A DNA stretch of 64,000 nt from a virus, in IMG/VR virus record IMGVR_UViG_3300027844_000680, positions 1 to 64,000 of that record; one strand, given 5' to 3'. A program made the translations under genes and the position numbers. Numbering within the stretch: the stretch's first letter is position 1; each line of letters starts with the position of its first letter. The notes beneath the pieces are model-generated. The model was given only the letters and a program-made list of their open reading frames with translations. It did not search any database and was not told the origin of the DNA. Positions 34,801 to 60,926 of the stretch are shown here, in pieces.

Positions 34801-37800
34801 GACTGGATGCCCCAATCTGAAGGGGCTCTCTGCGCCGTCATTGAGGGTTCAGTCATCTTCTCCAGAGGACTGGCCGAGCTTGGTAGTTCAGCGGTCTCGG
34901 CATCAACGGAAAGCGCCCGATTCGTTCTCAATGCCCGTATGTATATGGGACTCGACAGTCAGTTCTTTGCTGGCCGCCCGTCTTTCCGTGATGAGTATGC
35001 ACAACGAGACACCTTCCCGTCCCGTGGGTTGGAATCCCAGATCGCAGGTATTCTTGCAGAGGCCGAAGAAGGCCCCGCCAACCCGATCAACTGGTTCGCC
35101 CACACTGCCGAGGTGTGGAACAACGACCTCAATGCTGATCGGTGGGAAGTCCGAGCCAAAGAGCTACGTGAAGACGTAAACAACCACTACGGACGGCAGC
35201 GTCATGGTGGGATGGGCAAGATTGCTTCGTTCTACACGGACGCTCTTGAGTCCCCGAACTACAAAGAAGACACACGATTGGCCTTTACGGAACGTCAAGT
35301 TTCGACGCTCCCGACCAAGCCGTATCTGTTGTCTGATCCCATCCCCCAGGACGGGATGGCGTTCCCAGAGGGCTATCGGTACATCCTAACGGTCAAGTCG
35401 GCTGACCCGAAGAACGGCAACGCCTCCAAGTGGATCACTGCCCAGGTCATTAGTACCGATGAGATGCCGGTCACAACTGATCCAAATGTTGTTGCCCACT
35501 ACCTCAACAATGCGATTTACGATGGCACCGTTTCCAACAACATCGATGCAGAGTTGGACAACGCAGGGTTCTTCAAGACCCTTGGGGCGGGTGCTTCTTA
35601 TGCAGCCGGTAACAGTCTTCTCGGGACGAGTACATTAGTATCCAACCTGACCCGTAACCCCATGCTTACCCGGGATGAACGCCAGTTTTTGTGGTGCGGC
35701 CCCGGTGATCCACGACACCCCGAACACGTTATCGGAGGCTCCAACGATACTGGTAAGGTTGCCCTGCTTTGCGGTGGCTGGGGTTCTGCTTCTGCTGAAA
35801 GTTCTGCTGGCAGCCATCGAGACTTTACTAATGTCGTTGTTGAGTTCACCCATACAGCAGACTTTGGAGACGCCGGGTGCTCTGGTTGTGAAGATCTGGC
35901 CGAGTTCCTTGGCGGAGACTTCGCTCTCGACCGGCCTACATGCGGGTTGTTCTTCGGAGGGCACGCATGGGAGACCTTCCAAGTCGGTGCCCAAGCCTAC
36001 GGGACAGACCTTCCGATAGAGGGCTCGCAGCTATTCGTTGGCAGTCAGGTTTACACACTCACCGCCGATGACAACGTAGTACATCCCGACAAACCCTTCG
36101 TTGGCACCAATGTCCGTATTGCTTCGGGTGGTTTCGACACACTGAAGAACTTGGTTCGAGCAATCAGTACACACTCTGGGGACAGGGTGTGGATGTTCCT
36201 CCCTCCCGAGTACCTTCAGGACCAAACATCACAAGCCATTATTGAGAACGCTCCCGGTCACATTATTCGTCAAGAAGAAGATGTCACCCAACTCCGGTGG
36301 GTGGGTGGTCGTCAAAACGACCCGGCCAACCCGTGGTTGACGTTTTCGCAACCGGGCGGCGCTTCAGATCTACATGCCACTGTTTGGTGGTATCGCCCAG
36401 CCCCCGCAGTGAACACGGATGTCAATCCGTGGGAGTTTGGCAGTGGCTTGGACGGTAACAAAACCGAGGCCCGACTTTCGGATGCCCTCGGGTTCCTTCA
36501 GCGTGGAACCCCCCCGTTGGGTTCAATGGCCGGTTCCTTTCCCATTAGGGGCACCTATGGCGACACAGAGGCACTGGTCCTCGGGATGCCGAAGGGAGAT
36601 AGCCCCTATTACAGTGGCCCCCAGGCAGGAACAGGGCTCCCGAAGATTCACGGCAAACATGCCATCCCGGGCTACCTGGGACGGTGGGCGTGGGACATTG
36701 AGAACACCATTGATCCTATTGATGTCACAGACCCCACTACCGCAGGCATCGGTCAGATCCTTGCCACTTACGGTGTAGGGGCTCATTCAGAGAACCATTT
36801 TTCCAGCCAGTTGGCGAACCGTACCAGTTTGGAAATGGCGGGCGTGGCCCCCGATGGGTTTATCAACACGACGCCCCATCCCCACCATCTCCAAGTTGGG
36901 GATGAAGTCACTATCTCGGGCTCATCCCTCCAGCTTCCTTGGCTCGGTGAGCACAAAGCTCTGAATGGTCGCCATCGGGTGATCGCACTCTCCACCGACC
37001 AAGATGGGAACACAGACCCGTTCAAGTTCCAGATTGATCTGGGGGACGGCACCGGCTCTGTAATCCAAGACCCAATCGACAACTTCTATGAGTTCCACGG
37101 TCTCGGGGAAGTCTCTGTTGGTAAGACCTTCCAAACAACGGATACCCGTTGTGGGTTCGGCGAACAGCAAACTGGCTACGAGTCCTTCCTTGTCTACGCA
37201 GTGGAACTGGATCGTCACGACACCGCAGCCCTTCTGAAGAAGAAAACAGTACGGGACTTCATCGGAGTCGGGGACATTATCACTGGCCGCTCATTGAGCA
37301 TCGCCGGGGATGAGACCTATCCGTTCGTTCCTGTTGAGGGGCAGCGTAACGATCCTTCGTTCCACGGCCTTGTCTTTGATCCTCTCGCTCCGTTGTCTCT
37401 GAAGACCGGGGCTGTGGATGAACAAGGCGCTCCGGTAACCGTAGACAAGATCGGTAGCTCGGCCTTTACGTTCCTTGTCCATCGGACGATGAACACGGAC
37501 CGGGCAGCATGGCCGAGTTCGGAGCAAGCCCAACTTGCATCGGCGCTCCCCAGTCACCTCCGAATGTCGGAAGTGCAGCCGTATGACTTCGGGTTCAGCA
37601 CCCCAGACCGGGCGTTCCCGGTTGGTGAATCCTTCAGCATTTCGATCATCGCTAATGCGAACGCCATCACGTCTTCGGGGACTTTCAAGAGCCTGTATTC
37701 CGCTTTGTACGGGATACATGGAAAGGGATACACAGGTACTTCGGCCACCCCCGGTCTCGATGGCGGCTCTGTTACGTCATGGCCTGGAGAGTCTTCGATT

Positions 37801-40800
37801 CCCAACGCCATCTTCATGGCTGGCGGTCGGATCAACCTTCTGTCCAACCTCAACCCAACGGCCCCCGCAGGGTTGGTGTTCTCATCACCGACGCCCGGGG
37901 TCTCCGACGTAAACGCAGAAGAGCGTTATGCCACGACCTACATTGAACACGGGGTCTTTGTCTCTACGTTCAATGCCCATCATCCTTCTCCGCACTCGTC
38001 CTACAAGCTGCCTACTATTGGTGTTGGCGCTCCCCTCGATTCTGCTGGGCTCCATTCAGCGTTCTCCACTCTTCGGGGCAACACGGAAGCCCAGTTCAAG
38101 GGGGGATCTTCAATCGGTGGGGTGGGTGGTCTTCGGATCTCCGGTGACGCCACCATATGGCTGAAGAATGTTCGGGGGATGGGCGGTAAGAACGCTTACG
38201 TCCGACGCTCTCCCACTATCTATTACACAAAGTCCCCCTCGGGTGCTCCTGCCCTCGGCAACACCACTACCGGTCCCATCACGTCCTTCGGTCGTGATGG
38301 TGTCTCGGGGCACACCCCCAGTGGGTTCTCTGCTTCCAAGCGGACAACTGTAAATAGTGATGGAGCAACGCTCCATCTCCAAGAAGCGACGATTGAGATC
38401 GGCCTTACCAGGGCTGATCTTGCTTCATTCCGATACGCCACAGGCAACCCCGAGTTCCCTGCGTTGCGAGACGATGTTCACGAACCCTTACAGGACCAAG
38501 ACAGCGACGGTTATTGGGATGACCAAGGCGAGGGCGAGCGTATGCTCCACTACGCCAACGCCGTCGATTCCGTAGACCTCCCTGTTCCAGCCCGGTTCTT
38601 GACTGGCAGCTATCTCACGCTATCCCCCACCCAACCCCCTGGTTGGGATGAGGCAGGAAGTCCGAATACCCGGTCAAGCAGCAAGGTGCTTACGGATCTT
38701 CGACTTGACGAACAAGGTAACCCCACCCTCACCAACCCCAATGACGGGTCTTGGAGGATTACGGGCGTACCGATGATCACGGCGAGCTTCCGTACCTCTG
38801 GAAGTATCGACGGGTACGGTGCCTCGGTTTATCAGACTTTCCCCGCAGGGGATGGGATGAGCAGTGGTCCCGTTGTGGACACTACCTCTCCTGACGAGAT
38901 CGTCCAGGGCACTGGTTTCCAGGGCATGTCTGCCTCGGCCTCCGAGTCTTCCATTGTGGCGGTTCTCCAAGTTCGGGTGGAGCGGTATTCCCTCATCTCG
39001 TCTAATCCCGCATTGGACGAGGGCAGCCTTTTCCATCACCAGTTCGTCCCAGAAAATGCAAACCCAGGCGAGTTCCGTGACGGGGAAGGCATCGCACTGG
39101 ACTCTGTGTTGTCCCACACTTGGTCTATCTCCGCCGACCCGGGAGGGGACTCCCCCATCCTCGTTGCAGAGGTAATCGATCCAGGCGGTTCACCCACGGG
39201 TGCCCCGGCCTCTTTGCATGGCCTGACCTTCAACCCGAAGGTGTTGGCTTCTGGAGCCAACACGGTTCCTATGCGCTTGGTCCCGGTGTTCTCCCGCACC
39301 CCGCAGACTGATTCGATAGCAGGAATGGATACCCGTCTAATGGGCATCCATTCTAATCAAACGCATCGTGGCGAAACTCGCAGCTTTGCGATGTTCACGG
39401 TCAAGGGTGTTGGCCGGTCTCCGGTTATCTGGGATACCGCACAAGAAACCTATTTGCGTGCGACGATCTTCTCTTCCCAGAGGGCAGACCGTCTGGATGA
39501 TCTGATCAGTAGTCAGACGACCCAGGGTGTCTTCGAGAGAGACCAGACTGGTCGAGTGAGCTTCGTTGGACACCCAGCCCGATTGGGCTTGGGCGTAGTC
39601 CTTGATGGAGGGCTCGGCCTTGTTTCAGCCCGAGCGTTCCGAGCGCAACCCAGGTCTCCAGTAACAGACACGGTTGGTTCGTTGACGGTATTCGGCCATA
39701 ACGCCGCCTACCCGATGCTGAATCTGCTGAAGCCCCGGCAACACGTTGGAGTGGAGCTACCCTCTACCTTCAACACAGTTGAGTTCTACGAAGACACTGT
39801 AATCGTTGGGCCTCTTGGATCGTTGATCTTTGATGATGGTCGAGCGGTTCACGGCTTACCGGCGATGGACATCGCCGGTCGATATGCTTCGGCGTCATTC
39901 AAGTCGTCTCCACACCGTTTGGGTATTGGTGTCACCAAGGGGTACGCCGCTGCGGGCGCTCCTGGCGACAACTGGAGCATTGGAGACCTAATCACTCGGA
40001 GCGATACGCTGTTCCCGTTCACGGTAGCAGGTATCAAGTTCCATTCCCCAGGCGGGCTCGTTTACGAGCGTGCCTATCGCAGTATTGATGCGAGGACCGG
40101 TCCCAAGTCGATGTTCCTTGGGAAGAAAGCCCAGGCGGGTATCCGTGGGCTGGAGATTCCGTGGACTGGAGAATGTCTCTTGTTGCCGAAGGGGCCGCCG
40201 ACGATTCACGGTAAAGGCCATGCCAACTGGCGCTGGACAAATGACAGCAGTGGTTGGGACTACTTTGACTTTGGAGAGGCGAACCGGGCCACGGGGCACA
40301 CCCCCTTGGATACACCTCTTTACGAGTTCCACGGAGGCTATGGGCGAGGACATCTCGAACCCCACTTCCCCGTGCTTCCCGGGCCTATCTTCGACACGAT
40401 GACCACATCGGGGGTCCAGACCAACCTTATCTCCCCAGACTCTTCCGCTGGGGTGTCACAGCACCGTGGACACCCAGGCAACGTCTACATGGGCTATCGC
40501 CACAGTTTGAGTCGAGATGATGGCGACATCTTCAAGACTTGGAATCACTGGAATAGCAGCGCAGAATCTTTCACCAAGGTTGCTCGCCAACAGATGCGGG
40601 TTCTGGATGGGATGGTTTTGGAGGACGTGACTAACGGCACATTCTTCACTATCGGCGACATTGGCCGGATGGATGAGATGGTCAAGGGCACGATTGAGCT
40701 TGTGACCGACTTTGGGAGCGCCAACGTCGATTCGTGGGATAGTAAGACCATCATCATTGTCGTTCAAGATTGGGATGACTACGTTGAAGAAGAAGATGGA

Positions 40801-43800
40801 GACGATGGTTCTGGGGACGATCTAATCACGTTCGTCATCTACTTCGTGGATGTCATCTCTGACCCAGAGACTCAAGTTCAGATCTCTGACGCAACGGACC
40901 CGGCAGAGAAGGCCAAAGAAACCGTCGATAACCTGCTTCAGTTTATGGCATCTAATGACTGGTTCCGTGCTAACAACGTCGGTTGTGTCTTGGATCAAAC
41001 TGGTTGGGACGAGAAGACGGTCCTCCGCTTCAGTGGTCCGGTTTCAGCAAGGCATGAGGCTACTTTCATTACCGGTAGCAGCGTTAGCCCAGTATCGGGG
41101 CAGGCTCCTTTCTCTCTCGTACCAAACAGCTTTAGTAACTACCGTTGGCACAGGGGAACTGGTAAGCCGGGGGAGACTTTAGAGCTTGGTCAGTGGGGCG
41201 GCGAGCGTACTGTGAAGCGGTCTTCCACAGGCGGTTCAGTAACAGCAGGTGGCGGCCAGCCCGGTACTACGGTGTTCCATTTCCTCCAGAACGCCCCCGA
41301 ACAGGGCATTAGTGGTGGGAGCAACATTATTGCTCCCGGGGAGAAGATCACCTTTGGTGTGTCTCCTGGGCCACCCGATTATCAACAGAACTCCACAAGG
41401 ATTGGAGCATACTCCTACGCATCGCAGCTTGAGATTGATGTTAGTGACTCCACCCTGACGGGTGTCACCATCGCTTTCAGCACCACCGACCCGAGCGTGG
41501 ACCCCACACTTTGGGCGAGCGGCGCAGGGCACTGGCAAAGTAATGAGTTCAACCCTGGAACTTCTGGGGCCAAGGTACTCGTTGAGATCATCGGGGATGG
41601 GGACTCTTCTGGGGCCGCTGCGACTCCACAGCCGTTGTGGTACTACGGGGTCACGTCCAGCGGGGACATCCTCGCAGGCGGGTCCGTCACCGTAACTGGG
41701 GGAACCTCGGCCAATGAGGTGGCTCTGTCGGTCCACCCGGGCAGCGGGTATCCTTTCCTCGACGTTGACGGGGCCGGTATTGTAAACGTCGGTATCGTCA
41801 CTACTTATTCGATCCCCAGTAGCTACACCACCGACTACAACCTCCTTTATGAGTCGGTGGCTAAGACAGGGTTCCTCAACGTAATGGCACTTACCGCTGT
41901 TGCAGACACGCCTGGACCCTTCCAGTTCCAGATCGTCAACGGGGACAATAAAGCGACCTTCATCAACTTGGTCCAGGCGTGGAATAACGCCCCCTGGCAC
42001 GAAGTATTTGACTTCGCCAACTGCCCAGGATTGAACTACGCCCCCATCGCCCGTCTTATCGGGCAAATCGAGCGGTATTCTGAAACCAGCAGCCAGACTT
42101 ATTCTGGGCAGATTCCTGCTTATCCTTGGATCTGGGCTGTCGAGTTTATGACACGAGAGATCGGCCCCGATACATCCAATGGGGCCTTCTTTATGAAGAA
42201 GTCCAGTGGGGTTGATGGTAACGGTGATCCGATTTGGGACTACCTGATGACTTTGGGTGAGGGAAGTTCCACCGAAGTCTTTATCAATGGGGGTATGGGA
42301 CTCGACATCTCCAAAATAGAGGCAGCGGCAGAGGTCTATGGCGGTACCGACCCTAACGGTGATGTAATCCCCGTTAGACCGTGGGACGCAGGCCCCTTCT
42401 GGGAGGGGTGGGAGATTGATGGCCTCATTATCGAACTGATCCCCTTCGTCAATGGTTACACCCCCGAGTTGATCTTCGATCTCAATGGGCACTATGACCC
42501 GACCAAAGACCTCTTTAGTACGCAGGAAGCCGGTTACGGCGACCGGGTTGACGGTGGGATGGTCCGGCGTAATCTGGCAGGACACCTGTATCGGGTCGTT
42601 CCAAACGTAGAGTTCGTGCCTGTGCTTGGTAAGCGTGGCGTGGACGGCGGCCTACTTCCCCCGTTGGCTAACCCCCATGATCCACAAAGCGTAATCCCCA
42701 GCGCAGATGCCGTCTTCTATTCTGCTGGCTACAACTTCCGTGGAGCTTCTTCACACGGGGTCGGGGACATTGGACGATCTCTCTACATCTGCGGGACACA
42801 CAACTATGTCTACACTGGTTGGTGGACCATCATCGACGTGGTGGAAAACTACCCCCTTTCAGTATTTGATGACTTCACTCTTGGCCGCCCCGAGAATGGT
42901 GACCATTCTCTCCGTACCGTAGCGGTTCTTCGTAAATCGAATCGAGGGAACGGAACACGAAACCCGGCAGATAATGGGTTGAACCAAGGGGATGGGGCGC
43001 TGCCGTTGCAGTATCGACCACCCCGAGTCCGTATGGGGATGAATCACCAAACCAATGGCTTCCCGCAGGGCGATAAGAGGGGAGCGACCCATTACGGCTT
43101 TTTCTCCCAGGGGTCCGTAACAGGAAAGCGGCCCGAATATAGCGACTTGTGGTTGACAGTCACTTTGTCCAAGGGAGGCCCAACCGAAGCGTTACATCGA
43201 CAACAGTGGCGTGTCCTCACAGACGATATGTGGGACGGGATCGTCTACGACATCGACTCTGATGGAGTCATCTTCCCCCTCGCCGCGAACCCAAGTCTCC
43301 AGGTAACGGATGCTGTTAGCTTGGCGACGTACTGCAATCAAGACGTTCGTACCAACGGAAAGGCTGTCAAGTTCCCTGCCGGTCACACCCTAAGCAAGCC
43401 CTGGATCAGATGGCAGACCGACCACAATGTCTCTTCCGTGTACGGAACAGCCGTGGTTGTCAGCTACAACACGAACGAACTGAAAACCTCTCCCCACGCC
43501 TCTGAATGGTTGTGCGGGCCGGGTGGTCGGTTGCAGATCAACTTCTTCTCCAACGCCTCTGTGGGATTTCAAGGCGGCGATCCGAGCGCAGGTGCCCAAT
43601 ACACTATGGGTGTTGGGTTCTTGTCCTTCACGGGCCACAACAGCGAGCTTGACGCCACAACGGGAGACCGAAACAATCACCTCTGGGCTCATCCTGTAAA
43701 GCTGTACGGGAGCCAACCCAGTGACGGCATCCTTGAAGTTGACGCTGGTATGCACGTCAACTCCGCAGCAGGCGGGTTGCGATGGGTGTTCTCGGCCCCT

Positions 43801-46800
43801 CTCGTTGAAGAAAACATTGGATCGTATCTGCATCTTACGAAGCCGTCCGTGTATCGCTTCTCGAAGAAGCTGGCTTCGCAGAAGAATGCCGATGTCTCTT
43901 ACGAAGAGGACTTCCATTGGACCAGTGGATATCCCCGAGAGGGCGATACTTACTGGAACTCTACGGACATCTTCCGAGTCAACCGCTGCCCGAACACCAT
44001 GAACATGATGGTGGGTGGTGACTGTGAGACTTACTCACCGGAGATCATCCGAGTGTACCCCTCTGCCGAAACGGAAATCGTTGACGAAGGGGCTACGGAT
44101 AGCGGTCAAGGCCGGATGATCATGTACTCGCCGCTTGGCGTGTGGGGTAACTGGCCGGATAGTGCGACAGGATCGTTGCCCGCATCTGGTTCTGTCAATG
44201 AGCCTGTGATCTACGCTCTTCAGCCCATCGCCCGGGAACGCATCGTCTCTATCAAGGCGTCTGCTGGCAGTTCCAATGTGGTTCGGGGTGCGGGTTATGA
44301 TCCGATCCAGGGGTCAATGAACGACTCGGGGTTGACCAACGACCGATTGGGTCGAGGCCCCCTCTCCGGTGTTCACGTTCAAGAGCATATGGTCGGCGAT
44401 GTGAGCAGTTCGCATGTCAGCCCCACTGGGATCATCATGTCCTCCCCGTGGTTGCTGTTATCTCGGGCAGATGCTCAACGAGCAGTGCCGCAAGCTGACG
44501 GCCCTTATTCGATAGCAGAGGCGGCGGAGGATCTTGGGCAAGCTGGGAACAACATTGGATCGAACTTCTTTGGGGACACAGCCAACTGGCTGCTGAACAG
44601 CCACGATCCAATCTGGGTGGACCCCGAGCACGGTGAATGGACTGGTGATCCACAAATCTCCAATGAAGCCCAAGATTCTTACTTCGGACTCGGACAGGTT
44701 CCTTCTTACTTCTACTCTCTCTATGCGTGGGCACCTGCGGGGCAGTGGTGGGAGACTTTGATTCCCAACCTCTCCGAGACGCAGGGTCAGTACAACGCAA
44801 GCTGTACGCCGCCGACTATGCGCTTTGATCTAACAGAGGCTTACACCCAGGCCATGCAACCCGGTGGCGGAACCAACTCGCCTTACCCGAACCACGCCCC
44901 AAAGGGCGCTCGCCTAAACCGAATCTGGGTCAACTTCGGCGTGTGGGGTAACGAACCCCAAGGTCGGCATACACAGCTTGGTCTTCCCGGGTACAAACAG
45001 AGTGATAACACGACAGCGCCCAACGAGGTTCTTAGCGAATACCACATGGCGTTCAACTTGGTCTGTGAGCTTCCTGGTTCACAGGCTCGACTGAAGCCCC
45101 GTGACCACACCTATGTCCAACTCAAGTGGGACACCTCCGCTCAAGGGGCCTATTACACTGACACTTATTGGTACGGGACTACGATTACGATCCGACACTC
45201 CGATACGATGGGCAACATACAGTCCCTCGTTTTTGAAGCTGTGGAGCAGGCTGACCTTACGGCACTGGACGGTGGGGGAGACCCACTGTACGAAACGTCC
45301 GACCATAACCTTGGTAGTATTGGCCCATCACAGACACTTGGGAAGTATGTGGTCCCCCTTGACGCACCGGGTGTTGTCCCAAGCGTAAATCATGTGATCG
45401 CTGCTCGGAGGCTGGCGGCTGAAATCAACCGGGTGTCCACAATCGCCAGCGATCCCAACCACAACGACTATGACCCAAACCTCTCATCGTTCAACCTGAC
45501 GGCTTACGCCGTGGGTACCCGGGTTCGGATTGAGGCCAATGTCCCGGGAGACTCTGGGTTCGAGATTCGGTCCCATCATTCTTACTACTATATCGTTGGG
45601 ATGACGACGAGCCTCTACCAGCCGCCTCGTATGGTTCTGGAAGCTGGAAGCGTAGTTGACAACACGCCTACGGCGTTCCGCACTTTCCGAGGGGGCGCAC
45701 CCACAGAGCTTCATACTGGAACGTGCAGCTTCCCCTTTGGGGACCGAGCACCCAACGCTTTGGCAACCTACAACGCTTCCCAGCTACACCATACGGACCA
45801 AGGCTCTCGGGCTCCCGGTGGCACGGTGGTCATTCCCCTGTACTGCAACCGTGAGGCAGGAGACCTAATGCCTAACGTCATGGAGCGGTATGTAGACGTT
45901 GGCCCGTATTCCGAGATTGGCTACGGCCAGTTGACTCCCGATTGGGCGTTGGGCAGCTATGAGTTTGGTTTCGGGGCGGGTGAATCTGAATGGCCGTGGA
46001 AGAGGACCACGATGCCAATCGAGAAAGCGGTGCTCCAGGGGGAGATGCTGACAGTGATCAAGATGCTCCCTTGGTATCTTGGCGGGCATATGTGGAACCT
46101 CTCGCTGAATGACGCCAGCTTTTCCATGTATATGGGGAACGCCCATACGCCGGTTGTGTGGGGTGGTATCGACTTCGACACTGCCAACTCCAACCCAGGT
46201 GGGTTCCAAGGTGAGCAAACCGAACGAGGACAGTTCACGGCTCCATTCCTCAAGCCGGAATACAGCATCGCTTTGGCGTCTTTGTTCCCACGCTTGTCCC
46301 GAGTCGGTGGTGGTGTCCGAGACACCTTCACGTCAGGATTGGTAGCAAATGGTGACATTTTCCGCCGCTCTGCTAATGGCACCACAGGGAACGGGCCAGC
46401 TTCTTTGAGTGCTGCTGCCATGACAGGGATTGTTGTGGCTCACAACGCCACCAGTCCTCGCCCACCGCTCCGTACCGATGGCGGCCTTATGTTCGGCGCA
46501 GAGACATCACCCTCCTATCCCAATGACCAGGATGAGTCTTATGGGTATACATCCAGCGGGCAAAGCGGTACGAGTAAGTTCTCTGCAAGGTCACCGGGAA
46601 CTTGTCCTCATGCGTTTACGATTGCTCTTACTCCGGTCGGGGATCGCTTTGATCCACCAAGAGGCGAAGATGGGCATCGAGTCTCTGTGTCACCTCATGG
46701 GATTCATGCGGCCAAAGATCCGGTTTCCGGTGATCTCGTACCCCGGCCCTACTCATGGGATGGGGACCAGCGGCTTCCGTTCCACGGTAGGACTTTGCAG

Positions 46801-47112
46801 CCCTACACCGACCGACCCTTCAAGGTGGGCAACTGGTTGGATGAGGTACTGAAGGAATACGGGATCGCCACTCCTTCTGGGTCTATGTTGCCGCCCGGTG
46901 CCCGAATCTTCCTTGAAGTGGCGACAGGTCCAGGCCCCGGTGTTGTAAACGCCATCGACAAACAATACTGGATGGAAGGCCAAGATGAGTGGGCACGAGT
47001 CTCAAGTGGGTGTTGGGTCGGTAGTGTGAAATGTGCCTTTGATGTCGAAACGGCTGATGGCACAGCTTACACAAGAGATGTGAATGTTCTCGGCGATGAG
47101 GAGGATCGGTAG
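31840..47112 (+). CDS. Exceptionally large virion-type protein, 5090 aa
   Basis: A single uninterrupted frame of 15.3 kb runs from ATG 31840 to TAG 47110-47112. The N terminus is a charged helix (KELLEKLRKALEEKGH). After that the sequence is Gly/Asp/Pro/Trp-rich and beta-like throughout, with few cysteines apart from local CxxC spots such as AGCSGCEDL. An acidic linker (VEEEDGDDGSGDD) lies near residue 2982. Possible small repeated modules with a short helix ending in an N or D-type turn occur near residues 1220 (HYLNNAIYDG), 1420 (FDTLKNLVRAIS), 3030 (KETVDNLLQFM), 3370 (KATFINLVQAWN) and 4520 (ARRLAAEINR, later RIEANVPGDSGFEI). No protease, glycosidase or toxin motif was recognised. Its place between fibre genes argues for a virion appendage or adsorption protein. 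The intact frame argues for strong selection. Confidence 0.7.
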   Translation: MATDKELLEKLRKALEEKGHTTALREPWQEHLDRHTSVSSTASLQASEIFSDFAGSWAASYQVDPTATDLDKISNERLPPSPAKMTSKLGLPGYPEVNFIPYSHNTNRFGVKGPSLLGHPISFEVIGPTAKSPNVDWQWFLQEGSSEDRLYLDLGANLQDPNGSSVLAPSITSLQDGYGDLYGDNSQAGIYVIITQTGENSKTDTQVTGVGDGYIALEGVAGPGGGLREAIRAKTGASKYEIFRVVSWSNDYLQLDPGKRIRDHFDISASTDPIIRSIMLVRPKATRMVSIPGTGDAKGQERALVVVPPERSLNSDLKPPYEYDNAAPGSWRTEGFYGAWPGLGNGDSNLYAQGSSLPVPRIVGRSRALLPSTLEVPGVPPNLLVLKAATYSGVEDARDELKAGDVIHLHEVYSDELAEVAPKLTASPHGWWEVTSVPARGGTDQFIQLRGIEEVNPRTGKAHFGPWAIDGSGQDLSQPVPQVWVKFTIHKPIKDLWSNTGTGYQFDLDALKSARLTNLIDPSWVRESGKAIEIGHETVWAKADKAIFDTTSSQQGLSGTNANPGSLLDLGFRMVLFPAMASGDHLVPDFANPIDSLEVRLDEDAADERQYLTIDYSAGIVVLSHSPKLGCELDPHGLIGQITDLNPRGELVLFASCVPYSMEMGQLGSSIRVTSGAMEPDWCLPDSTQADVYGARHRVDIKTDVDGAPQIVGSQVLGQSLVLALAVPATPMEFKKSLAAFPVAGHIEILQSSEAPAFTTTSSTTDTIRLSTFSYNGVDVYTDSDGPWVRLRNVYGGADAGNSVTVNHDGEFLVVFRKDFYPETVIDSTGDSDFSYQLDTTHGSAKRTKTLRFAHANLFENLDGTITVYPTAVDGPAEELRAFFPLGGPDDTARFHLVPETQMWTADSGPCRDDGEHEVGIEIKRGRFFSSMRVDVRQDHMRYWRFTNLVSKLELQAPQGLETPPDTFVAHINTGQDATQPLPPHYMDWMPQSEGALCAVIEGSVIFSRGLAELGSSAVSASTESARFVLNARMYMGLDSQFFAGRPSFRDEYAQRDTFPSRGLESQIAGILAEAEEGPANPINWFAHTAEVWNNDLNADRWEVRAKELREDVNNHYGRQRHGGMGKIASFYTDALESPNYKEDTRLAFTERQVSTLPTKPYLLSDPIPQDGMAFPEGYRYILTVKSADPKNGNASKWITAQVISTDEMPVTTDPNVVAHYLNNAIYDGTVSNNIDAELDNAGFFKTLGAGASYAAGNSLLGTSTLVSNLTRNPMLTRDERQFLWCGPGDPRHPEHVIGGSNDTGKVALLCGGWGSASAESSAGSHRDFTNVVVEFTHTADFGDAGCSGCEDLAEFLGGDFALDRPTCGLFFGGHAWETFQVGAQAYGTDLPIEGSQLFVGSQVYTLTADDNVVHPDKPFVGTNVRIASGGFDTLKNLVRAISTHSGDRVWMFLPPEYLQDQTSQAIIENAPGHIIRQEEDVTQLRWVGGRQNDPANPWLTFSQPGGASDLHATVWWYRPAPAVNTDVNPWEFGSGLDGNKTEARLSDALGFLQRGTPPLGSMAGSFPIRGTYGDTEALVLGMPKGDSPYYSGPQAGTGLPKIHGKHAIPGYLGRWAWDIENTIDPIDVTDPTTAGIGQILATYGVGAHSENHFSSQLANRTSLEMAGVAPDGFINTTPHPHHLQVGDEVTISGSSLQLPWLGEHKALNGRHRVIALSTDQDGNTDPFKFQIDLGDGTGSVIQDPIDNFYEFHGLGEVSVGKTFQTTDTRCGFGEQQTGYESFLVYAVELDRHDTAALLKKKTVRDFIGVGDIITGRSLSIAGDETYPFVPVEGQRNDPSFHGLVFDPLAPLSLKTGAVDEQGAPVTVDKIGSSAFTFLVHRTMNTDRAAWPSSEQAQLASALPSHLRMSEVQPYDFGFSTPDRAFPVGESFSISIIANANAITSSGTFKSLYSALYGIHGKGYTGTSATPGLDGGSVTSWPGESSIPNAIFMAGGRINLLSNLNPTAPAGLVFSSPTPGVSDVNAEERYATTYIEHGVFVSTFNAHHPSPHSSYKLPTIGVGAPLDSAGLHSAFSTLRGNTEAQFKGGSSIGGVGGLRISGDATIWLKNVRGMGGKNAYVRRSPTIYYTKSPSGAPALGNTTTGPITSFGRDGVSGHTPSGFSASKRTTVNSDGATLHLQEATIEIGLTRADLASFRYATGNPEFPALRDDVHEPLQDQDSDGYWDDQGEGERMLHYANAVDSVDLPVPARFLTGSYLTLSPTQPPGWDEAGSPNTRSSSKVLTDLRLDEQGNPTLTNPNDGSWRITGVPMITASFRTSGSIDGYGASVYQTFPAGDGMSSGPVVDTTSPDEIVQGTGFQGMSASASESSIVAVLQVRVERYSLISSNPALDEGSLFHHQFVPENANPGEFRDGEGIALDSVLSHTWSISADPGGDSPILVAEVIDPGGSPTGAPASLHGLTFNPKVLASGANTVPMRLVPVFSRTPQTDSIAGMDTRLMGIHSNQTHRGETRSFAMFTVKGVGRSPVIWDTAQETYLRATIFSSQRADRLDDLISSQTTQGVFERDQTGRVSFVGHPARLGLGVVLDGGLGLVSARAFRAQPRSPVTDTVGSLTVFGHNAAYPMLNLLKPRQHVGVELPSTFNTVEFYEDTVIVGPLGSLIFDDGRAVHGLPAMDIAGRYASASFKSSPHRLGIGVTKGYAAAGAPGDNWSIGDLITRSDTLFPFTVAGIKFHSPGGLVYERAYRSIDARTGPKSMFLGKKAQAGIRGLEIPWTGECLLLPKGPPTIHGKGHANWRWTNDSSGWDYFDFGEANRATGHTPLDTPLYEFHGGYGRGHLEPHFPVLPGPIFDTMTTSGVQTNLISPDSSAGVSQHRGHPGNVYMGYRHSLSRDDGDIFKTWNHWNSSAESFTKVARQQMRVLDGMVLEDVTNGTFFTIGDIGRMDEMVKGTIELVTDFGSANVDSWDSKTIIIVVQDWDDYVEEEDGDDGSGDDLITFVIYFVDVISDPETQVQISDATDPAEKAKETVDNLLQFMASNDWFRANNVGCVLDQTGWDEKTVLRFSGPVSARHEATFITGSSVSPVSGQAPFSLVPNSFSNYRWHRGTGKPGETLELGQWGGERTVKRSSTGGSVTAGGGQPGTTVFHFLQNAPEQGISGGSNIIAPGEKITFGVSPGPPDYQQNSTRIGAYSYASQLEIDVSDSTLTGVTIAFSTTDPSVDPTLWASGAGHWQSNEFNPGTSGAKVLVEIIGDGDSSGAAATPQPLWYYGVTSSGDILAGGSVTVTGGTSANEVALSVHPGSGYPFLDVDGAGIVNVGIVTTYSIPSSYTTDYNLLYESVAKTGFLNVMALTAVADTPGPFQFQIVNGDNKATFINLVQAWNNAPWHEVFDFANCPGLNYAPIARLIGQIERYSETSSQTYSGQIPAYPWIWAVEFMTREIGPDTSNGAFFMKKSSGVDGNGDPIWDYLMTLGEGSSTEVFINGGMGLDISKIEAAAEVYGGTDPNGDVIPVRPWDAGPFWEGWEIDGLIIELIPFVNGYTPELIFDLNGHYDPTKDLFSTQEAGYGDRVDGGMVRRNLAGHLYRVVPNVEFVPVLGKRGVDGGLLPPLANPHDPQSVIPSADAVFYSAGYNFRGASSHGVGDIGRSLYICGTHNYVYTGWWTIIDVVENYPLSVFDDFTLGRPENGDHSLRTVAVLRKSNRGNGTRNPADNGLNQGDGALPLQYRPPRVRMGMNHQTNGFPQGDKRGATHYGFFSQGSVTGKRPEYSDLWLTVTLSKGGPTEALHRQQWRVLTDDMWDGIVYDIDSDGVIFPLAANPSLQVTDAVSLATYCNQDVRTNGKAVKFPAGHTLSKPWIRWQTDHNVSSVYGTAVVVSYNTNELKTSPHASEWLCGPGGRLQINFFSNASVGFQGGDPSAGAQYTMGVGFLSFTGHNSELDATTGDRNNHLWAHPVKLYGSQPSDGILEVDAGMHVNSAAGGLRWVFSAPLVEENIGSYLHLTKPSVYRFSKKLASQKNADVSYEEDFHWTSGYPREGDTYWNSTDIFRVNRCPNTMNMMVGGDCETYSPEIIRVYPSAETEIVDEGATDSGQGRMIMYSPLGVWGNWPDSATGSLPASGSVNEPVIYALQPIARERIVSIKASAGSSNVVRGAGYDPIQGSMNDSGLTNDRLGRGPLSGVHVQEHMVGDVSSSHVSPTGIIMSSPWLLLSRADAQRAVPQADGPYSIAEAAEDLGQAGNNIGSNFFGDTANWLLNSHDPIWVDPEHGEWTGDPQISNEAQDSYFGLGQVPSYFYSLYAWAPAGQWWETLIPNLSETQGQYNASCTPPTMRFDLTEAYTQAMQPGGGTNSPYPNHAPKGARLNRIWVNFGVWGNEPQGRHTQLGLPGYKQSDNTTAPNEVLSEYHMAFNLVCELPGSQARLKPRDHTYVQLKWDTSAQGAYYTDTYWYGTTITIRHSDTMGNIQSLVFEAVEQADLTALDGGGDPLYETSDHNLGSIGPSQTLGKYVVPLDAPGVVPSVNHVIAARRLAAEINRVSTIASDPNHNDYDPNLSSFNLTAYAVGTRVRIEANVPGDSGFEIRSHHSYYYIVGMTTSLYQPPRMVLEAGSVVDNTPTAFRTFRGGAPTELHTGTCSFPFGDRAPNALATYNASQLHHTDQGSRAPGGTVVIPLYCNREAGDLMPNVMERYVDVGPYSEIGYGQLTPDWALGSYEFGFGAGESEWPWKRTTMPIEKAVLQGEMLTVIKMLPWYLGGHMWNLSLNDASFSMYMGNAHTPVVWGGIDFDTANSNPGGFQGEQTERGQFTAPFLKPEYSIALASLFPRLSRVGGGVRDTFTSGLVANGDIFRRSANGTTGNGPASLSAAAMTGIVVAHNATSPRPPLRTDGGLMFGAETSPSYPNDQDESYGYTSSGQSGTSKFSARSPGTCPHAFTIALTPVGDRFDPPRGEDGHRVSVSPHGIHAAKDPVSGDLVPRPYSWDGDQRLPFHGRTLQPYTDRPFKVGNWLDEVLKEYGIATPSGSMLPPGARIFLEVATGPGPGVVNAIDKQYWMEGQDEWARVSSGCWVGSVKCAFDVETADGTAYTRDVNVLGDEEDR

Positions 47113-55218: not shown

Positions 55219-55256
55219 AAAAAGCCCCTTACCGGTTCGCCGGTAAGGGGCTTTTT
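55219..55256. terminator. Bidirectional intrinsic terminator
   Basis: A perfect 17-base-pair stem (AAAAAGCCCCTTACCGG at 55219-55235 and its complement at 55240-55256) closes a TTCG tetraloop. It has an A-run on the left and a T-run on the right, so it works in both directions. It lies between the convergent holin-candidate gene and the KH gene. Confidence 0.93.
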
Positions 55257-55260
55257 AGTT

Positions 55261-55581
55261 CTAACTGTCGTCTTGTTTTCGCTGATAAGACTTGCGGTGG
55301 AAGACCGCTTGGGATGCGTGTTCACGGTGCGGCTGGTGATTCCGGTCTTCTGGGATTTCCAGGGTGTACCGCATCTTCCGCTTACCCCCAACCGCTGCAA
55401 GGAGCGTTCGTAACGCATCTGCGTGGGAACCCCCTCGACCGATGACTTTGCCTACGTCTCTGGGATCTACTGTGAGTTCGAGAATACAGGTGCGTGACCC
55501 AACGACTTCCAGACACGATACTTGGTCTGGATAATCTACGATCTCTCGGATTACCACTTCAACTAACTGCGGCACATCCAT
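55261..55581 (-). CDS. KhpA-like KH-domain RNA-binding protein, 106 aa
   Basis: The first 75 residues match the bacterial KhpA (YlqC) family: an N-terminal helix (LVEVVIREIVDYPDQV), the strand CILELTVDPRDVGKVIG, the KH GxxG loop GKVIGRGG (residues 44-51), and a helix with ADALRTLLAAVGGKRKMRY. Cellular KhpA is a 75-80-residue single KH domain that pairs with KhpB and binds many RNAs. Here a basic, His/Gln-rich tail of about 30 residues is added (NHQPHREHASQAVFHRKSYQ). The start has GGAGAG seven bases upstream. It is the last gene of a minus-strand operon and ends five bases from the terminator. A role in controlling host or phage RNA is inferred from the domain alone. Confidence 0.85.
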   Translation of the reverse strand: MDVPQLVEVVIREIVDYPDQVSCLEVVGSRTCILELTVDPRDVGKVIGRGGSHADALRTLLAAVGGKRKMRYTLEIPEDRNHQPHREHASQAVFHRKSYQRKQDDS

Positions 55582-56553: not shown

Positions 56554-56928
56554 TTATGCGAGCCCCTCTTTACGAAGAGCCGCACGAAAATCTGCATCGG
56601 AGCGGGCTTCTTGACGGGTGCGGAGTCCGTAGTCACGGGGGCGAGCCCGTTGTGAACCTTGGGAGTTCCATCGCTGACCTTTACGGAATCGACCCGCTTG
56701 CTGATCGCAAGCACAGGTGACCAGATCACGGGGCGAAACCCCCGGCACCCAATCACGGTTGAAAGCACCATCCTCCCCGACTCGACGGACGTGGATAGCC
56801 AGATGTTTACGCCACTCACGAAGAGTACGCTCTCGTTCCAATGCTGCACGACGCATGGCGTCTTCTCCTATCATTTCCAGAACGGCGAACCGTTCAAGGG
56901 CTTGGGGGTCGATGCCCACGGGCGGCAC
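56554..56928 (-). CDS. Small basic protein of unknown function, 124 aa
   Basis: It starts at GTG 56928, the only usual start codon between an upstream in-frame TAG and the conserved-looking part. The ribosome site is weak. The product is Arg-rich: REWRKHLAIHVRRVGEDG, DWVPGVSPRDLVTCACDQQA, then GRFRKGQRW. A C-x-C followed by GRFRK resembles short phage proteins annotated as possible nucleic-acid binders, which is recollection rather than a demonstrated match. It is the first gene downstream of the leftward 28-base promoter-like element (57030-57057), with a leader of about 100 bases. Competing frames on either strand here look less coherent. Confidence 0.55.
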   Translation of the reverse strand: MPPVGIDPQALERFAVLEMIGEDAMRRAALERERTLREWRKHLAIHVRRVGEDGAFNRDWVPGVSPRDLVTCACDQQAGRFRKGQRWNSQGSQRARPRDYGLRTRQEARSDADFRAALRKEGLA

Positions 56929-57029
56929 CTTGATTTTTGACGGAAGCAGCCCACCTGCTCCCTAAACCATGCACATACGTTGGTGTTCTCCTACGTGTTG
57001 AGGTTCGAGGTTATCTCCGCCTCTCACAA

Positions 57030-57057
57030 CGTCTACCCCCGGTATCCGAAAGGTAAC
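57030..57057 (-). promoter_or_regulatory. 28-base element A (leftward)
   Basis: Read on the minus strand it is GTTACCTTTCGG, then ATACCGG, then GGGTAGACG. It is followed by TTGTGAGAGG, which copy B also carries. It faces the minus-strand operon and lies about 100 bases before its first start codon. I interpret it as a promoter. Confidence 0.7.
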
Positions 57058-57060
57058 AAT

Positions 57061-57082
57061 AAATCATAAAACCCAATGATTT
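57061..57082. promoter_or_regulatory. AT-rich inverted repeat between divergent elements
   Basis: AAATCAT (57061-57067) and ATGATTT (57076-57082) form a perfect seven-base inverted repeat with an eight-base spacer. It lies in the 44-base gap between leftward element A and rightward element B. This is a natural place for a regulator that would control both directions. Confidence 0.4.
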
Positions 57083-57101
57083 CAAGGACTTACGAAAGTT
57101 T

Positions 57102-57129
57102 GTTACCTTTCGATCCGTCAGGGTAGACG
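57102..57129 (+). promoter_or_regulatory. 28-base element B (rightward)
   Basis: It reads GTTACCTTTCGA, TCCGTCA, GGGTAGACG and continues TTGTGAGAG, so it shares about 10 further bases with the divergent copy A. It is the first of three rightward copies upstream of the HARP-like gene. Confidence 0.7.
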
Positions 57130-57226
57130 TTGTGAGAGCGATGGCATGGACGAAGCTGGGTGTAAGCCCCGCAGGGAACGTAAGTCGGGATGCCCGAAGT
57201 GCCGTCACCTCTCTTACACAGCCCCG

Positions 57227-57254
57227 GTTACTTTTCGGTACCCGGGGGTAGACG
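57227..57254 (+). promoter_or_regulatory. 28-base element C (rightward)
   Basis: It reads GTTACTTTTCGG, TACCCGG, GGGTAGACG, with the same total length as the other copies. It contains the stop codon (TAG at 57249-57251) of the 36-codon frame that begins just after element B. Confidence 0.65.
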
Positions 57255-57378
57255 AAATGAGGGTAGTCCGATTCGGTCGGAAACAGGGTCCAGAGCGAAG
57301 CCACCACCGAGAGGTCTGGGGCCGAGTGTTGACGGACAGGGAGAGAGTAGGCCGCTCCCAACTACCATCATTTTCCTC

Positions 57379-57406
57379 GTTACCTTTCGAGAGGCGAGGG
57401 TAGACG
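57379..57406 (+). promoter_or_regulatory. 28-base element D (rightward), before the HARP-like gene
   Basis: It reads GTTACCTTTCGA, GAGGCGA, GGGTAGACG. The start codon of the HARP-like gene lies 31 bases downstream, after GAGAGGAAAC, so it is well placed as the proximal promoter of that gene. Confidence 0.7.
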
Positions 57407-57437
57407 AGGCAGGACACACAGCGAGAGGAAACAGAAC

Positions 57438-58409
57438 ATGGGTTCATCAGACCACATCAAAGTTGCGGACCTTCACGGGATGCCCGTGCCAGACTTTTTC
57501 ACCACCTGCTATTCGCTGACGGCGAGTCACTGCTGCGTGTGTGCAACCCCTCTCCGAGATGCCTTGAGCGTCCAGCTAATGATCGGCCCTACCTGCCGTA
57601 AGCGGTACGGCTACCTCGATCTCCCCGAGAACCCCAACATGCCCGTGGCGTTGGGTCTGGTCGCTGCGTTGGAGCAGCAGGACAACATCAAGCCGATGGT
57701 GGTCCGCTACCTGCTCGCCAACCGGGACGACCCCCGAATGATGTGCAACATCTTGACGGCGTTCGCCAGCGTCCACTACTCCGACAAGACGTTGGTCTTG
57801 GCGGCTTCCCCCATCATCCGTGCGCTCGGTTACCCAAAGCTCGCTGAAAAGCTGGAGTGGGACCGCAGCGTGGTCCAGATCCGCAAGGATTGGGCAGCGA
57901 AGCGCATCGAAGTCTACACCCCCTACAACCGCCAGTTCGTTGTGGACCTCCACAAGCTGACTGGACAGTCTGCCGAGAAGGTCTACAACGAGCGCAAGGA
58001 CCGCAGCGGCAACGTCCGTCAGGGCAAGTTCAAGTGCTGGTCTATACCGGAGCGATTCGAGGCCGATCTCATGGCCCTGATTCGGGGCTACTACGAGGGC
58101 GAGGCCATTTATGACGGTGAGGGCGTGAGCGTCATCCCCGGCCCCACAGATGCCGAGAAGGCTGTCGCCGTGAAGGTGAAGGTCTCCCTGGCTTCCCAGG
58201 TTCGCATCGAGCCTGGAAGTACCTCCCGTGCCCGAGTGGCCGTGTTCAGCCCGCCCCCGTGGGAAGACGAGGCGTGCAAGGCGTTCGTGGACGGTGTTCG
58301 GAACATCCGTGGTCGCTCGTTCGACCGTGACCGCAAGTGCTGGACGGTTCCTGCCGCTGCCTTGCAGCGAGTCGAAGACTTGAAGGCCCAACATTTCGGA
58401 GCCGAGTAA
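57438..58409 (+). CDS. Zinc-motif protein with two HARP-like repeats, 323 aa
   Basis: Residues 31-57 have CCVCATPLRDALS followed by IGPTCRKRYG, a short cysteine motif of the DUF6011 kind that probably binds zinc. Two later segments resemble each other and the HARP domain of annealing helicases (SMARCAL1 type). The first, about residues 155-210, has RIEVYTPYNRQFVVDLHKL and GKFKCWSIPERF. The second, 264-318, has RVAVFSPPPWEDEACKAF and RGRSFDRDRKCWTVPAAAL. In that family the pattern is a beta-alpha unit ending in K-x-W-x-x-P and contacts branched or single-stranded DNA. No helicase domain is present. A GAGAGGAAAC ribosome site precedes the ATG. It is the first clear gene of the rightward block that leads into the WGR and ligase genes, so a DNA repair or replication role is reasonable. 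Confidence 0.7.
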   Translation: MGSSDHIKVADLHGMPVPDFFTTCYSLTASHCCVCATPLRDALSVQLMIGPTCRKRYGYLDLPENPNMPVALGLVAALEQQDNIKPMVVRYLLANRDDPRMMCNILTAFASVHYSDKTLVLAASPIIRALGYPKLAEKLEWDRSVVQIRKDWAAKRIEVYTPYNRQFVVDLHKLTGQSAEKVYNERKDRSGNVRQGKFKCWSIPERFEADLMALIRGYYEGEAIYDGEGVSVIPGPTDAEKAVAVKVKVSLASQVRIEPGSTSRARVAVFSPPPWEDEACKAFVDGVRNIRGRSFDRDRKCWTVPAAALQRVEDLKAQHFGAE

Positions 58410-58444
58410 GCCAGTTACTTTCTCGGAGTAAGCCAGTTACTTTC
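58404..58444 (+). repeat. 19-base tandem duplication spanning a stop codon
   Basis: GAGTAAGCCAGTTACTTTC occurs exactly at 58404-58422 and 58426-58444, a 22-base period. The first copy contains the TAA stop of the HARP-like gene, and the second supplies the left half of 28-base element E. The duplication appears to have copied the gene end together with the start of the control element. Confidence 0.8.
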
Positions 58445-58463
58445 CAACCCCCGAGGGTAAACG
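58436..58463 (+). promoter_or_regulatory. 28-base element E (rightward), before the WGR-ligase pair
   Basis: It reads GTTACTTTCCAA, CCCCCGA, GGGTAAACG, the most divergent of the five copies but with the same length and ends. It lies 22 bases before the ATG of the WGR gene, so it could drive the WGR and ligase genes. Confidence 0.6.
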
Positions 58464-58485: not shown

Positions 58486-59010
58486 ATGTCATACTACACC
58501 ATCCAAGCAGCAGCAGAGGCCGCAAGACTGGGTATCCCCTGGAAGGTCCGTCTGGAATACACGGGCTACAACGACAAAAACGCCAGCGGCAACAGCTACA
58601 AGTTCTGGGAGGCCAACGGCGTTCCAGGCTCTACGGCTGTCACCATTCGCTACGGGCGCATCGGCTCGGCAGGGCGACCGCTCCAGAAGGATTGGAGCTA
58701 CTTCGTTGAGAAGTTTCCCGAGAAGCAGGCCAAGGGGTACGACTATGATTCCCGTACCCAAAGTGCCGTGGATCAGCCCGAGGCTACGCCCGTCACGACT
58801 CTGGCAGACGGCACGATCTCCGAGATTGAGGTCAGCCAAGTGGTCGCATCGACCTTCGGCGCAGGCCCCTACGGTCAGATCCGCAGCGTTCTCCGCTCGG
58901 TGATGAGCGGTACGGAGTGCTGGTCGGCCTATGACGAACACGGCACCCTCATCATGCAGTTGCCCGAGGCTGGCGTGGAAACCATCAAGGAAGCGGTACT
59001 GGCAGTATGA
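58486..59010 (+). CDS. WGR-domain protein, 174 aa
   Basis: Residues about 20-90 fit a WGR domain: KFWEANGV, VTIRYGRIGSAGRPLQKDW, FVEKFPEKQAKGYDY. The usual Trp-Gly-Arg is Tyr-Gly-Arg here. WGR domains bind DNA ends in PARP proteins and occur in bacterial and phage proteins next to or fused with ligases. The C-terminal half (residues 105-174) is a separate mixed alpha/beta segment (SQVVASTFGAGPYGQIRSVL, HGTLIMQLPEAG) that is not recognised. The ribosome site is GAGGAAGG. The stop overlaps the ligase start as ATGA at 59007-59010, so the two are translationally coupled. I infer that it helps the ligase find or hold DNA ends. Confidence 0.8.
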   Translation: MSYYTIQAAAEAARLGIPWKVRLEYTGYNDKNASGNSYKFWEANGVPGSTAVTIRYGRIGSAGRPLQKDWSYFVEKFPEKQAKGYDYDSRTQSAVDQPEATPVTTLADGTISEIEVSQVVASTFGAGPYGQIRSVLRSVMSGTECWSAYDEHGTLIMQLPEAGVETIKEAVLAV

Positions 59011-60926
59011 GCAAGCAAGTTACCAGCCTCGCAGCCAAGCTCACCCAGGCACGGGACGCCTACTACAACGGCAAGCCCATCATGTCTGACCTTGAGTTTG
59101 ACGTGATGGAAGACAAGCTGCGTAAGCTCGATCCAGGCCACGCCTTTTTCTCCAAGGTCGGCGCTGCTCCTGTGAGCGGTTGGTCCAAGGTCACGCACAA
59201 GATCCCCATGACCAGCTTGAACAAGGCCCAAGACGCCGACGATATGCGAACGTGGGGTAACGGTCGCACTGGCTACATCGCTGCCGGGGAGTTCATCTGG
59301 ATTGAAAAGCTGGACGGGATCTCGATCTCACTCCGCTACGACAAGGGCATCCTGACCCAAGCTGTGACCCGTGGTGATGGCTCTGTGGGCGAAGACATTA
59401 CCCGCAACGTCAAGCTAATGAAGGGTCTCCCGAGTCAACTCGCTGTTGATCCATCATGGTCAGGCTACGTTCGTGGCGAGATTGTCTGCCTCCGGTCTGA
59501 CTTCGATGCTCACTTTCCCGGTGAGTCCAACCCTCGCAACACGGCTTCCGGTACTGCCAAGCGTCAGTCCGATCCACGTCCATGCGCTCACCTGACGGTG
59601 ATGCCGTTCCAGTGCCTTCCAGACACGGGAATGTACGCCACCAAGAAGGGTGAGCTTACTGCCCTGCAATCCTTGGGGTTCACCCATACCCCTCAATGGT
59701 GGACAAGGGACTCCCTCACAGCCATCTTCGACACTTACAACGAGTATGTGGCTACGAGGCGGGACAATCTGGACTACGAGATCGATGGGCTGGTGGTCAG
59801 CCTCAACGACAACCAGAAGTGGGAAGATGCCGGGGAGAAAAACCATCGCCCCGCAGGATCAATCGCCTTCAAGTTTCCCCATGAGTCAGCCACAACCCGG
59901 CTCCAAGATATCATCTGGCAGGTCGGCAACTCCGGTCGTGTGACCCCCGTGGCCGAGTTTGATTCGGTGCCACTGGCAGGGGCCAACGTCCGTCGAGCGA
60001 GCCTCCACAACATCAGCAACATCGGACGCATCGCAAGCGAGGCAGGACACACGGCACTGCGGAAGGGTGATCTGATCATGGTCAGCCGCCGCAACGACGT
60101 GATTCCATACGTCGAAGCCCTCGTCACGCCCAAGACAAGCGGTGCTTTGTTGTCTGTACCTCCCACCGACTGCCCGTGCTGCGGCACGGCGTTGCAGATG
60201 GACGGTGAGTATCTGGTCTGCAACGGCACGATGTGTTCGGCCCAGGTGTCGGGCAGCATCAAGCGTTGGGTCAAGAAGGTCGGCATCCTCGATTGGGGGA
60301 CCAGCGTGATTGACGTTCTGGTGGACTCTGAACTCATCAAAGATCCAGCAGACCTCTACAAGCTCGACGAAACCACTCTCTCGGCTGTCCAACTTTCGGG
60401 TCGGCGGGTCGGCTCTGGTGCCAAGACCATGCTCGCCAACCTCCACGCCAAGACCGATCTCCCCGTGAACGTGGTGGTCGGCTCGCTCGGCATCGACCTC
60501 ATGGGTCGGTCAATGGTCAAGAAGCTGGTTGACGCTGGCTACGACACCCTGGACGCTCTGGCGACCGCTACGGTCCAAGAGTTTGCTTCGGTGCCCGGTA
60601 TGGGTCAGACGAAGGCAGAAGCCTTCCATAGTGGCTTCCACTTCCGCTCTGGTCTCATCAGCAAGCTGGTGATGAACGGTATCACCATCAAGGCTCCCTC
60701 TACTGGCTTCCTCAAGGGCATGACAGTCTGCATGACAGGCTTCCGTGACGCTGCGATGCACGATGCGATTGAAGCCGCAGGCGGGACCATAAAGTCGAGC
60801 GTTGTTCGTGACCTCGATTACTTGGTCGCCAAAGACCCAAGCTCTACAAGCGGTAAGGCCAAGAAGGCCCGTGATCAACTCACACACATCGTCAGCATCG
60901 AAGATATGCAAAGCCTCTTGAGCTAA
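59007..60926 (+). CDS. ligA: NAD+-dependent DNA ligase, full length, 639 aa
   Basis: It joins DNA nicks using NAD+. All family domains are present in order. The Ia-type NAD-binding segment has AYYNGKPIMSDLEFDVM (about residues 17-33). The adenylation domain has the catalytic lysine K101 in EKLDGISISL and TRGDGSVGEDIT. An OB fold region contains GRVTPVAEFDSVPLAGANV. A four-cysteine zinc finger uses C389, C392, C405 and C410. Helix-hairpin-helix repeats follow (LGIDLMGRSMVKKL, FASVPGMGQTKAEAF). A C-terminal BRCT domain begins GMTVCMTGFRD. At 639 residues it is close to the cellular LigA length of about 670, and no key residue is missing. It is coupled to the WGR gene by an ATGA overlap. Many phages use ATP-dependent ligases instead. 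Confidence 0.95.
   Translation: MSKQVTSLAAKLTQARDAYYNGKPIMSDLEFDVMEDKLRKLDPGHAFFSKVGAAPVSGWSKVTHKIPMTSLNKAQDADDMRTWGNGRTGYIAAGEFIWIEKLDGISISLRYDKGILTQAVTRGDGSVGEDITRNVKLMKGLPSQLAVDPSWSGYVRGEIVCLRSDFDAHFPGESNPRNTASGTAKRQSDPRPCAHLTVMPFQCLPDTGMYATKKGELTALQSLGFTHTPQWWTRDSLTAIFDTYNEYVATRRDNLDYEIDGLVVSLNDNQKWEDAGEKNHRPAGSIAFKFPHESATTRLQDIIWQVGNSGRVTPVAEFDSVPLAGANVRRASLHNISNIGRIASEAGHTALRKGDLIMVSRRNDVIPYVEALVTPKTSGALLSVPPTDCPCCGTALQMDGEYLVCNGTMCSAQVSGSIKRWVKKVGILDWGTSVIDVLVDSELIKDPADLYKLDETTLSAVQLSGRRVGSGAKTMLANLHAKTDLPVNVVVGSLGIDLMGRSMVKKLVDAGYDTLDALATATVQEFASVPGMGQTKAEAFHSGFHFRSGLISKLVMNGITIKAPSTGFLKGMTVCMTGFRDAAMHDAIEAAGGTIKSSVVRDLDYLVAKDPSSTSGKAKKARDQLTHIVSIEDMQSLLS

Follow-up and report, generated by a model that had tools for sequence, protein, structure and literature searches.

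In phage phiEco32, a phage sigma factor directs the host RNA polymerase (RNAP) to phage-specific promoters, and the same has been proposed for phage 7-11 (PMC4331800). A similar use of sigma factors together with the host RNAP has been proposed for RNAP-less jumbo phages (PMC7824862, PMC13282480). The 28-bp element described here resembles the phiEco32 and 7-11 motifs, which were found by comparing intergenic regions, in being a repeated phage-specific motif at gene starts (PMC4331800). It differs in having two boxes within a fixed 28 bp, whereas those motifs consist of a single -10-like box (TAATGTATA, TGTGATGTTATA). The sigma of those systems is phage-encoded, whereas none is present on the fragment analysed here; the likeness is one of design. 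As in RNAP-less jumbo phages, no RNAP was found and a sigma factor is encoded by relatives, although the sigmas of those phages are RpoD-like or minimal single-helix-turn-helix (HTH) proteins (PMC7824862), whereas those of the relatives are predicted to be ECF-type, some with an extra N-terminal part. The elements form a real, functional-looking set of probable phage-specific promoters of an already known kind, to which is added a design that appears to be kept while its letters change.

The stretch of DNA that was analysed (the window, 64,000 nt) comprises bases 1-64,000 of a virus record, G000, which is 85,358 bp when complete. G000 encodes a contractile-tail module (Baseplate_J, sheath initiator) and very large structural proteins, as well as DNA ligase, SNF2 and DnaB-type helicases, methylases, thymidine kinase and thioredoxin, and falls within a lineage of large phages with contractile tails. 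Its relatives, found via the DnaB-type helicase, have tail and replication genes in common with it, mostly at 30-60% identity, and include the 485-kb uncultured phage LR745208. Several records with a related sigma factor are about 300 kb long, so that G000 probably represents only part of a much larger genome.

The pattern GTTACYTTYC-N9-GGGTARACG has exactly five matches in the window, where none is expected from 100 dinucleotide shuffles, and these coincide in place and strand with five 28-base elements reported previously from the letters alone (hereafter the sequence-only reading). A scan of the window allowing up to three mismatches added no copy and left the 57 kb ahead of the cluster empty, in agreement with the earlier claim that the element is absent from the late genes. 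The elements and the features around them are as follows.

57030..57057, minus strand: element 1, GTTACCTTTCGGATACCGGGGGTAGACG, exact match, intergenic; divergent partner of element 2, facing gene 56554-56928
57102..57129, plus strand: element 2, GTTACCTTTCGATCCGTCAGGGTAGACG, exact match; first of three tandem copies before gene 57438
57227..57254, plus strand: element 3, GTTACTTTTCGGTACCCGGGGGTAGACG, exact match; second tandem copy
57379..57406, plus strand: element 4, GTTACCTTTCGAGAGGCGAGGGTAGACG, exact match; 31 nt to the ATG of gene 57438
58436..58463, plus strand: element 5, GTTACTTTCCAACCCCCGAGGGTAAACG, exact match; 22 nt to the gene 58486 ATG, a ribosome-binding site lying in the gap
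58414..58422, plus strand: extra half site, GTTACTTTC, 22 bp before element 5, without a downstream box
57021..57138, no strand: core of the divergent pair, 18-bp perfect inverted repeat CTCTCACAACGTCTACCC / GGGTAGACGTTGTGAGAG
57056..57085, minus strand: sigma70-like match TTGAAA-N18-TATTGT, the sole one near the cluster, overlapping the start of element 1
56554..56928, minus strand: gene faced by element 1; protein of 124 aa without known function, start codon uncertain
57438..58409, plus strand: gene after elements 2-4; 323 aa, DUF6011 domain
58486..59010, plus strand: gene after element 5; 174 aa, WGR domain
59007-60926: NAD-dependent DNA ligase gene, following the WGR gene in an apparent operon
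57130..57378, plus strand: two segments between the tandem elements, with no convincing gene

Elements 1 and 2 are separated by 44 bp of AT-rich DNA, and the inverted repeat extends both of them beyond the downstream box. The half site lies within a duplicated 19-mer (GAGTAAGCCAGTTACTTTC) recovered by a repeat search. If elements 2 and 3 are active, the two segments at 57130..57378, which have no Rfam match, would be transcribed as leader or short RNAs.

Six further copies with zero to three mismatches are present in G000, at 74717 and 74810 on the minus strand and at 74861, 75035, 75394 and 77020, giving 11 in total; a reversed control pattern produced one chance match. When repeated gapped 5-mer pairs were ranked de novo, with no prior, GTTAC-N14-GGGTA came first in G000 (10 copies, 0.12 expected). 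The copies align without gaps and hold about 35 bits of conservation, with GTTACY-N13-GGGTAR in all except one, which has AGGTA. The variable centre of about 8-9 bases proposed earlier is present; its length is 9 bp, and it proved to be partly conserved (C10, G11, A/G12, Y17 and R19). The divergent arrangement proposed for 57030 and 57102 was confirmed and recurs in a second pair at 74810/74861.

A hand-curated gene list places only 3.9% of G000 in intergenic DNA, and 11/11 copies lie entirely within this fraction and share the strand of the gene that follows (p~3e-16, a nominal value, as copies in one cluster are not independent). The sequence-only reading had held that each element faces a gene or gene set, which these strands uphold, and had named copies scattered in coding DNA as evidence against a promoter; the genome-wide search found none there. 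The two clusters share one plan, in which a divergent pair (44 or 23 bp apart) is followed by more tandem copies and then by single copies before downstream genes. The copy nearest to the ATG lies, in order of size, 18, 18, 22, 31 and 33 nt away across the genes at 57438, 58486, 75096, 75440 and 77066, with a ribosome-binding site between, and 63 nt from the start of the minus-strand gene 73841-74653. Element-bearing gaps measure 50-76 nt in three cases, and in three compact gaps the upstream stop codon lies 4, 9 or 26 nt before the element, which leaves little room for another promoter. Sigma70-type matches (TTGACA-N16-18-TATAAT) near the elements do not exceed chance, with 2 found and 3.5 expected in the cluster region. 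This result agrees with the earlier view that the layout is not that of a standard sigma70 promoter.

The favoured explanation, considered reasonably likely, is that the element is a phage-specific -35/-10 core promoter read by the host RNAP with a phage sigma encoded on the missing part of the genome. Position, orientation, spacing and the comparison with relatives all lend good support to its identity as a promoter. GTTACY would form the -35-type box and GGGTAR(ACG) the -10-type box, 13 bp apart, with transcription predicted to start a few bases past the element and the ribosome-binding site directly downstream. A phage-made sigma would program the host RNAP at the element, switching on, without recourse to host sigma70 promoters, the DUF6011, WGR and DNA ligase genes and several small genes. 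From these observations we infer the promoter role, the start site, the timing and a phage-sigma reader encoded on the missing part of the genome. If this explanation is true, sequence alone would suffice to read how an uncultured giant-phage lineage programmes its transcription, and the lineage would offer a set of orthogonal phage sigma-promoter pairs, whose promoters are long and very specific and which could be tested for co-evolution and as tools.

Searches of the 85-kb G000, an incomplete record, for a sigma gene by tblastn, family HMM and TIGR02937 were all negative. Relatives encode a sigma-like protein in two related forms: a long form of about 300 aa in G003, G009, G010, G011 and G012, and a shorter form in G006, G008, G013, G015 and G017. 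The two forms that were tested match TIGR02937 (sigma70-ECF) with E-values of 1.3e-6 and 9.7e-6. In the relatives' protein P0001, a single alignment to this family model (positions 16-155 of 165, E 1.3e-6, below the curated cut-off) covers both sigma region 2 and sigma region 4, as in an ECF sigma. TIGR02937 scans of the records matched most copies, including three of the long form at 5e-12 to 3e-8; the G011 copy and the G012 long form were not among the matches. The G003 sigma has no sequence match in the PDB, and its structure was predicted with moderate confidence (pLDDT 67, pTM 0.32). Its best structural matches are almost all sigma factors, headed by M. tuberculosis sigmaH (probability 0.99), each match being weak individually (best E 2.7e-3). 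The relatives' protein is taken to be an ECF-type sigma factor, divergent in sequence and lengthened at the N terminus in some of them, and LR745208 encodes a further divergent member of the family. Several larger relatives also encode a second protein of about 200-270 aa that contains two HTH domains resembling sigma region 4 (L102:1558-2166, L156:1183-1776 and L157:1237-2046, related to each other) and would be an alternative reader. By eye, the gene located two places upstream of the double-HTH gene in L102 and L156 resembles a DNA polymerase clamp-loader subunit.

Relatives both encode a sigma and carry analogous elements, which makes a phage sigma the favoured one of the three readers named in the sequence-only reading. 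In G003 the element GGGTTCCC-N13-GACGTAA, likewise exactly 28 bp long, is present in 13 copies, 10 of which have SD and start 16-26 nt downstream (p 8e-6). G009 and G010 were picked up solely via a relative of G003's sigma-like protein and were seen afterwards to contain the same kind of element, before genes in every copy (4/4 at 20-22 nt in G009 and 8/8 at 17-25 nt in G010). The pattern GGKTTC-N16-18-CGTA, spaced N17/18 in five records, occurs 12, 24, 7, 4 and 4 times in the five records with the long-form sigma, of which 8, 9, 6, 4 and 3 copies are upstream of SD+ATG, and one to three times, never so placed, in five other records; this agreement between motif and sigma lies within one clade, does not represent independent events and is confounded by shared ancestry. 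In G012 (297 kb) a promoter-like class of about 20 copies, GGGGGGTTCAACTC...TATCTCCGTATA (also written GGGGGGTTCAACTC...CTCCGTATA), has GGGTTC and CGTA at N18 in common, and a weaker second class, GGGGT-N17-GGGTA, has 13 copies. Short palindromes (CCCTATCGGACCCGTAGGGT) before several G012 start codons (L062-L076) were set aside.

The element of LR745208, TAAA-N15-CCGATAG, has at least 45 copies (45-49 by pattern stringency, within the 350 kb that were read), almost all of them at gene starts, and in full reads CGATTTC-CTAAAAA...CCGATAGGGT, directly before dozens of small genes (L149-L155). The sigma28/FliA consensus is TAAA-N15-GCCGATAA, to which CTAAAAA...CCGATAGG, at dozens of LR745208 gene starts, is similar; it is not the sequence of the G000 element, whose own letters occur in none of the relatives examined. 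G006 and G013, which have the shorter sigma, gave no clear element, and the partial relatives G001 and G002 have neither sigma nor comparable element. The design of the element seems to be kept across the lineage while its letters change. A tentative extension of this pattern is that the lineage may hold to one strategy, a phage sigma with a fixed two-box promoter, while the promoter letters turn over completely, some converging on host SigB-like (G000) or sigma28-like (LR745208) promoters, as a series of co-evolved sigma-promoter pairs.

Repeats in G001 were rejected as a G000-type element, being a different thing. A long array of a degenerate 12-bp unit in G001 (L021:9099-11266, and also at about 19.8-21.7 kb) is broken by many near-identical copies of a ribosome-binding site and start (GGGAGATCAACCATGACTAACG, minus strand), as if it encoded many short repeat proteins each with the same start. 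The 288-kb contig IMGVR_UViG_3300028177_000001 (L165, L169, L173), from the same sample as G003, contains at least three copies of the G003 element and may be the remainder of that phage. In the viral collection, the exact G000 element gave a single match, which lies inside a repetitive coding region (L011) and was taken as chance; a looser pattern gave 43 single-copy matches on contigs without a homologue of G000 proteins, which were taken as chance.

The main rival to a phage sigma, an unlikely one, is that the promoter is read by a hijacked host group-3 sigma of the SigB/SigF type. In B. subtilis the SigB consensus is GTTTAA-N12-14-GGG(A/T)A(A/T), to which GTTACY-N13-GGGTAR comes close; Streptomyces SigB-family promoters are similar to it as well, and its box sequences and 13-bp spacing fit well the GTTW and GGGWA boxes and 12-14-bp spacing of SigB/SigF-type promoters (PMC8346170). 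The nearness of the LR745208 element to the sigma28 consensus is also consistent with this rival, as relatives might borrow different host sigmas. However, the near-identity of the G000 copies much exceeds the loose conservation of the SigB-family promoters listed in PMC8346170, and the element has an extra ACG after the -10 box and a conserved YTTYCGA after the -35 box. Further arguing against it, the full element occurs only three times, singly, among 84,980 species genomes, matches in bacterial genomes that were taken as chance, and relatives encode their own sigma. No SigB/SigF-family sigma gene was found on G000. The sequence-only reading proposed an ECF-type host sigma; a host alternative sigma, if one is used, would be SigB/SigF-like rather than ECF-like. 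Were the boxes to mimic a host sigma instead, they would help to connect contigs with their hosts.

Phage repressors are known to bind repeated asymmetric sites close to gene starts, and the tandem and divergent arrangement of the copies is compatible with a stoperator-like asymmetric repeat that serves a phage regulator as operator or activator site, in place of a core promoter. This is improbable, given that the element lies 18-33 nt from the ATG with little promoter room, that no separate promoter is predicted above chance and that the two-box design fits sigma promoters.

Reading by a phage-encoded RNAP, T7-like or multisubunit, would suit the high identity of the copies, which is typical of phage-RNAP promoters, and the gene might lie beyond the incomplete G000 record. 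It is very doubtful, however, as no Rpb2-type multisubunit RNAP was found in nine related records in which controls were detected, and this absence disfavours a phage RNAP as one of the readers named earlier. A T7-type search also gave no match, its control being undetected as well, and the variable centre between the boxes is unlike the contiguous promoters of single-subunit enzymes. An RNA role as leader hairpin or processing site, suggested by partly complementary boxes with one bulge (GTTACYTT / RGGGTARAC) and by several variable positions of the alignment that retain G-U or A-U pairing, is the least credible and was rejected, since folding hardly beats shuffles (mean z -0.74) and does not do so for the analogous G003 element (+0.38), there is no Rfam match, and divergent copies 23 and 44 bp apart cannot both be transcribed unless promoters overlap them.

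Other features of the record include a 5,090-codon open reading frame (window 31840-47112), which adjoins another of 2,533 codons, both lacking a Pfam match. A perfect 17-bp inverted repeat at window 55219-55256, with an A-run and a T-run (AAAAAGCCCCTTACCGG...CCGGTAAGGGGCTTTTT), lies between convergent genes and is likely a two-way terminator. At window 55261-55581 the minus strand carries a gene for a KhpA-type KH-domain RNA-binding protein in this phage. A putative lipoprotein with MopE copper-binding motifs, which is unusual for a phage, is encoded at L010:9160-11199 (record 83160-85199).
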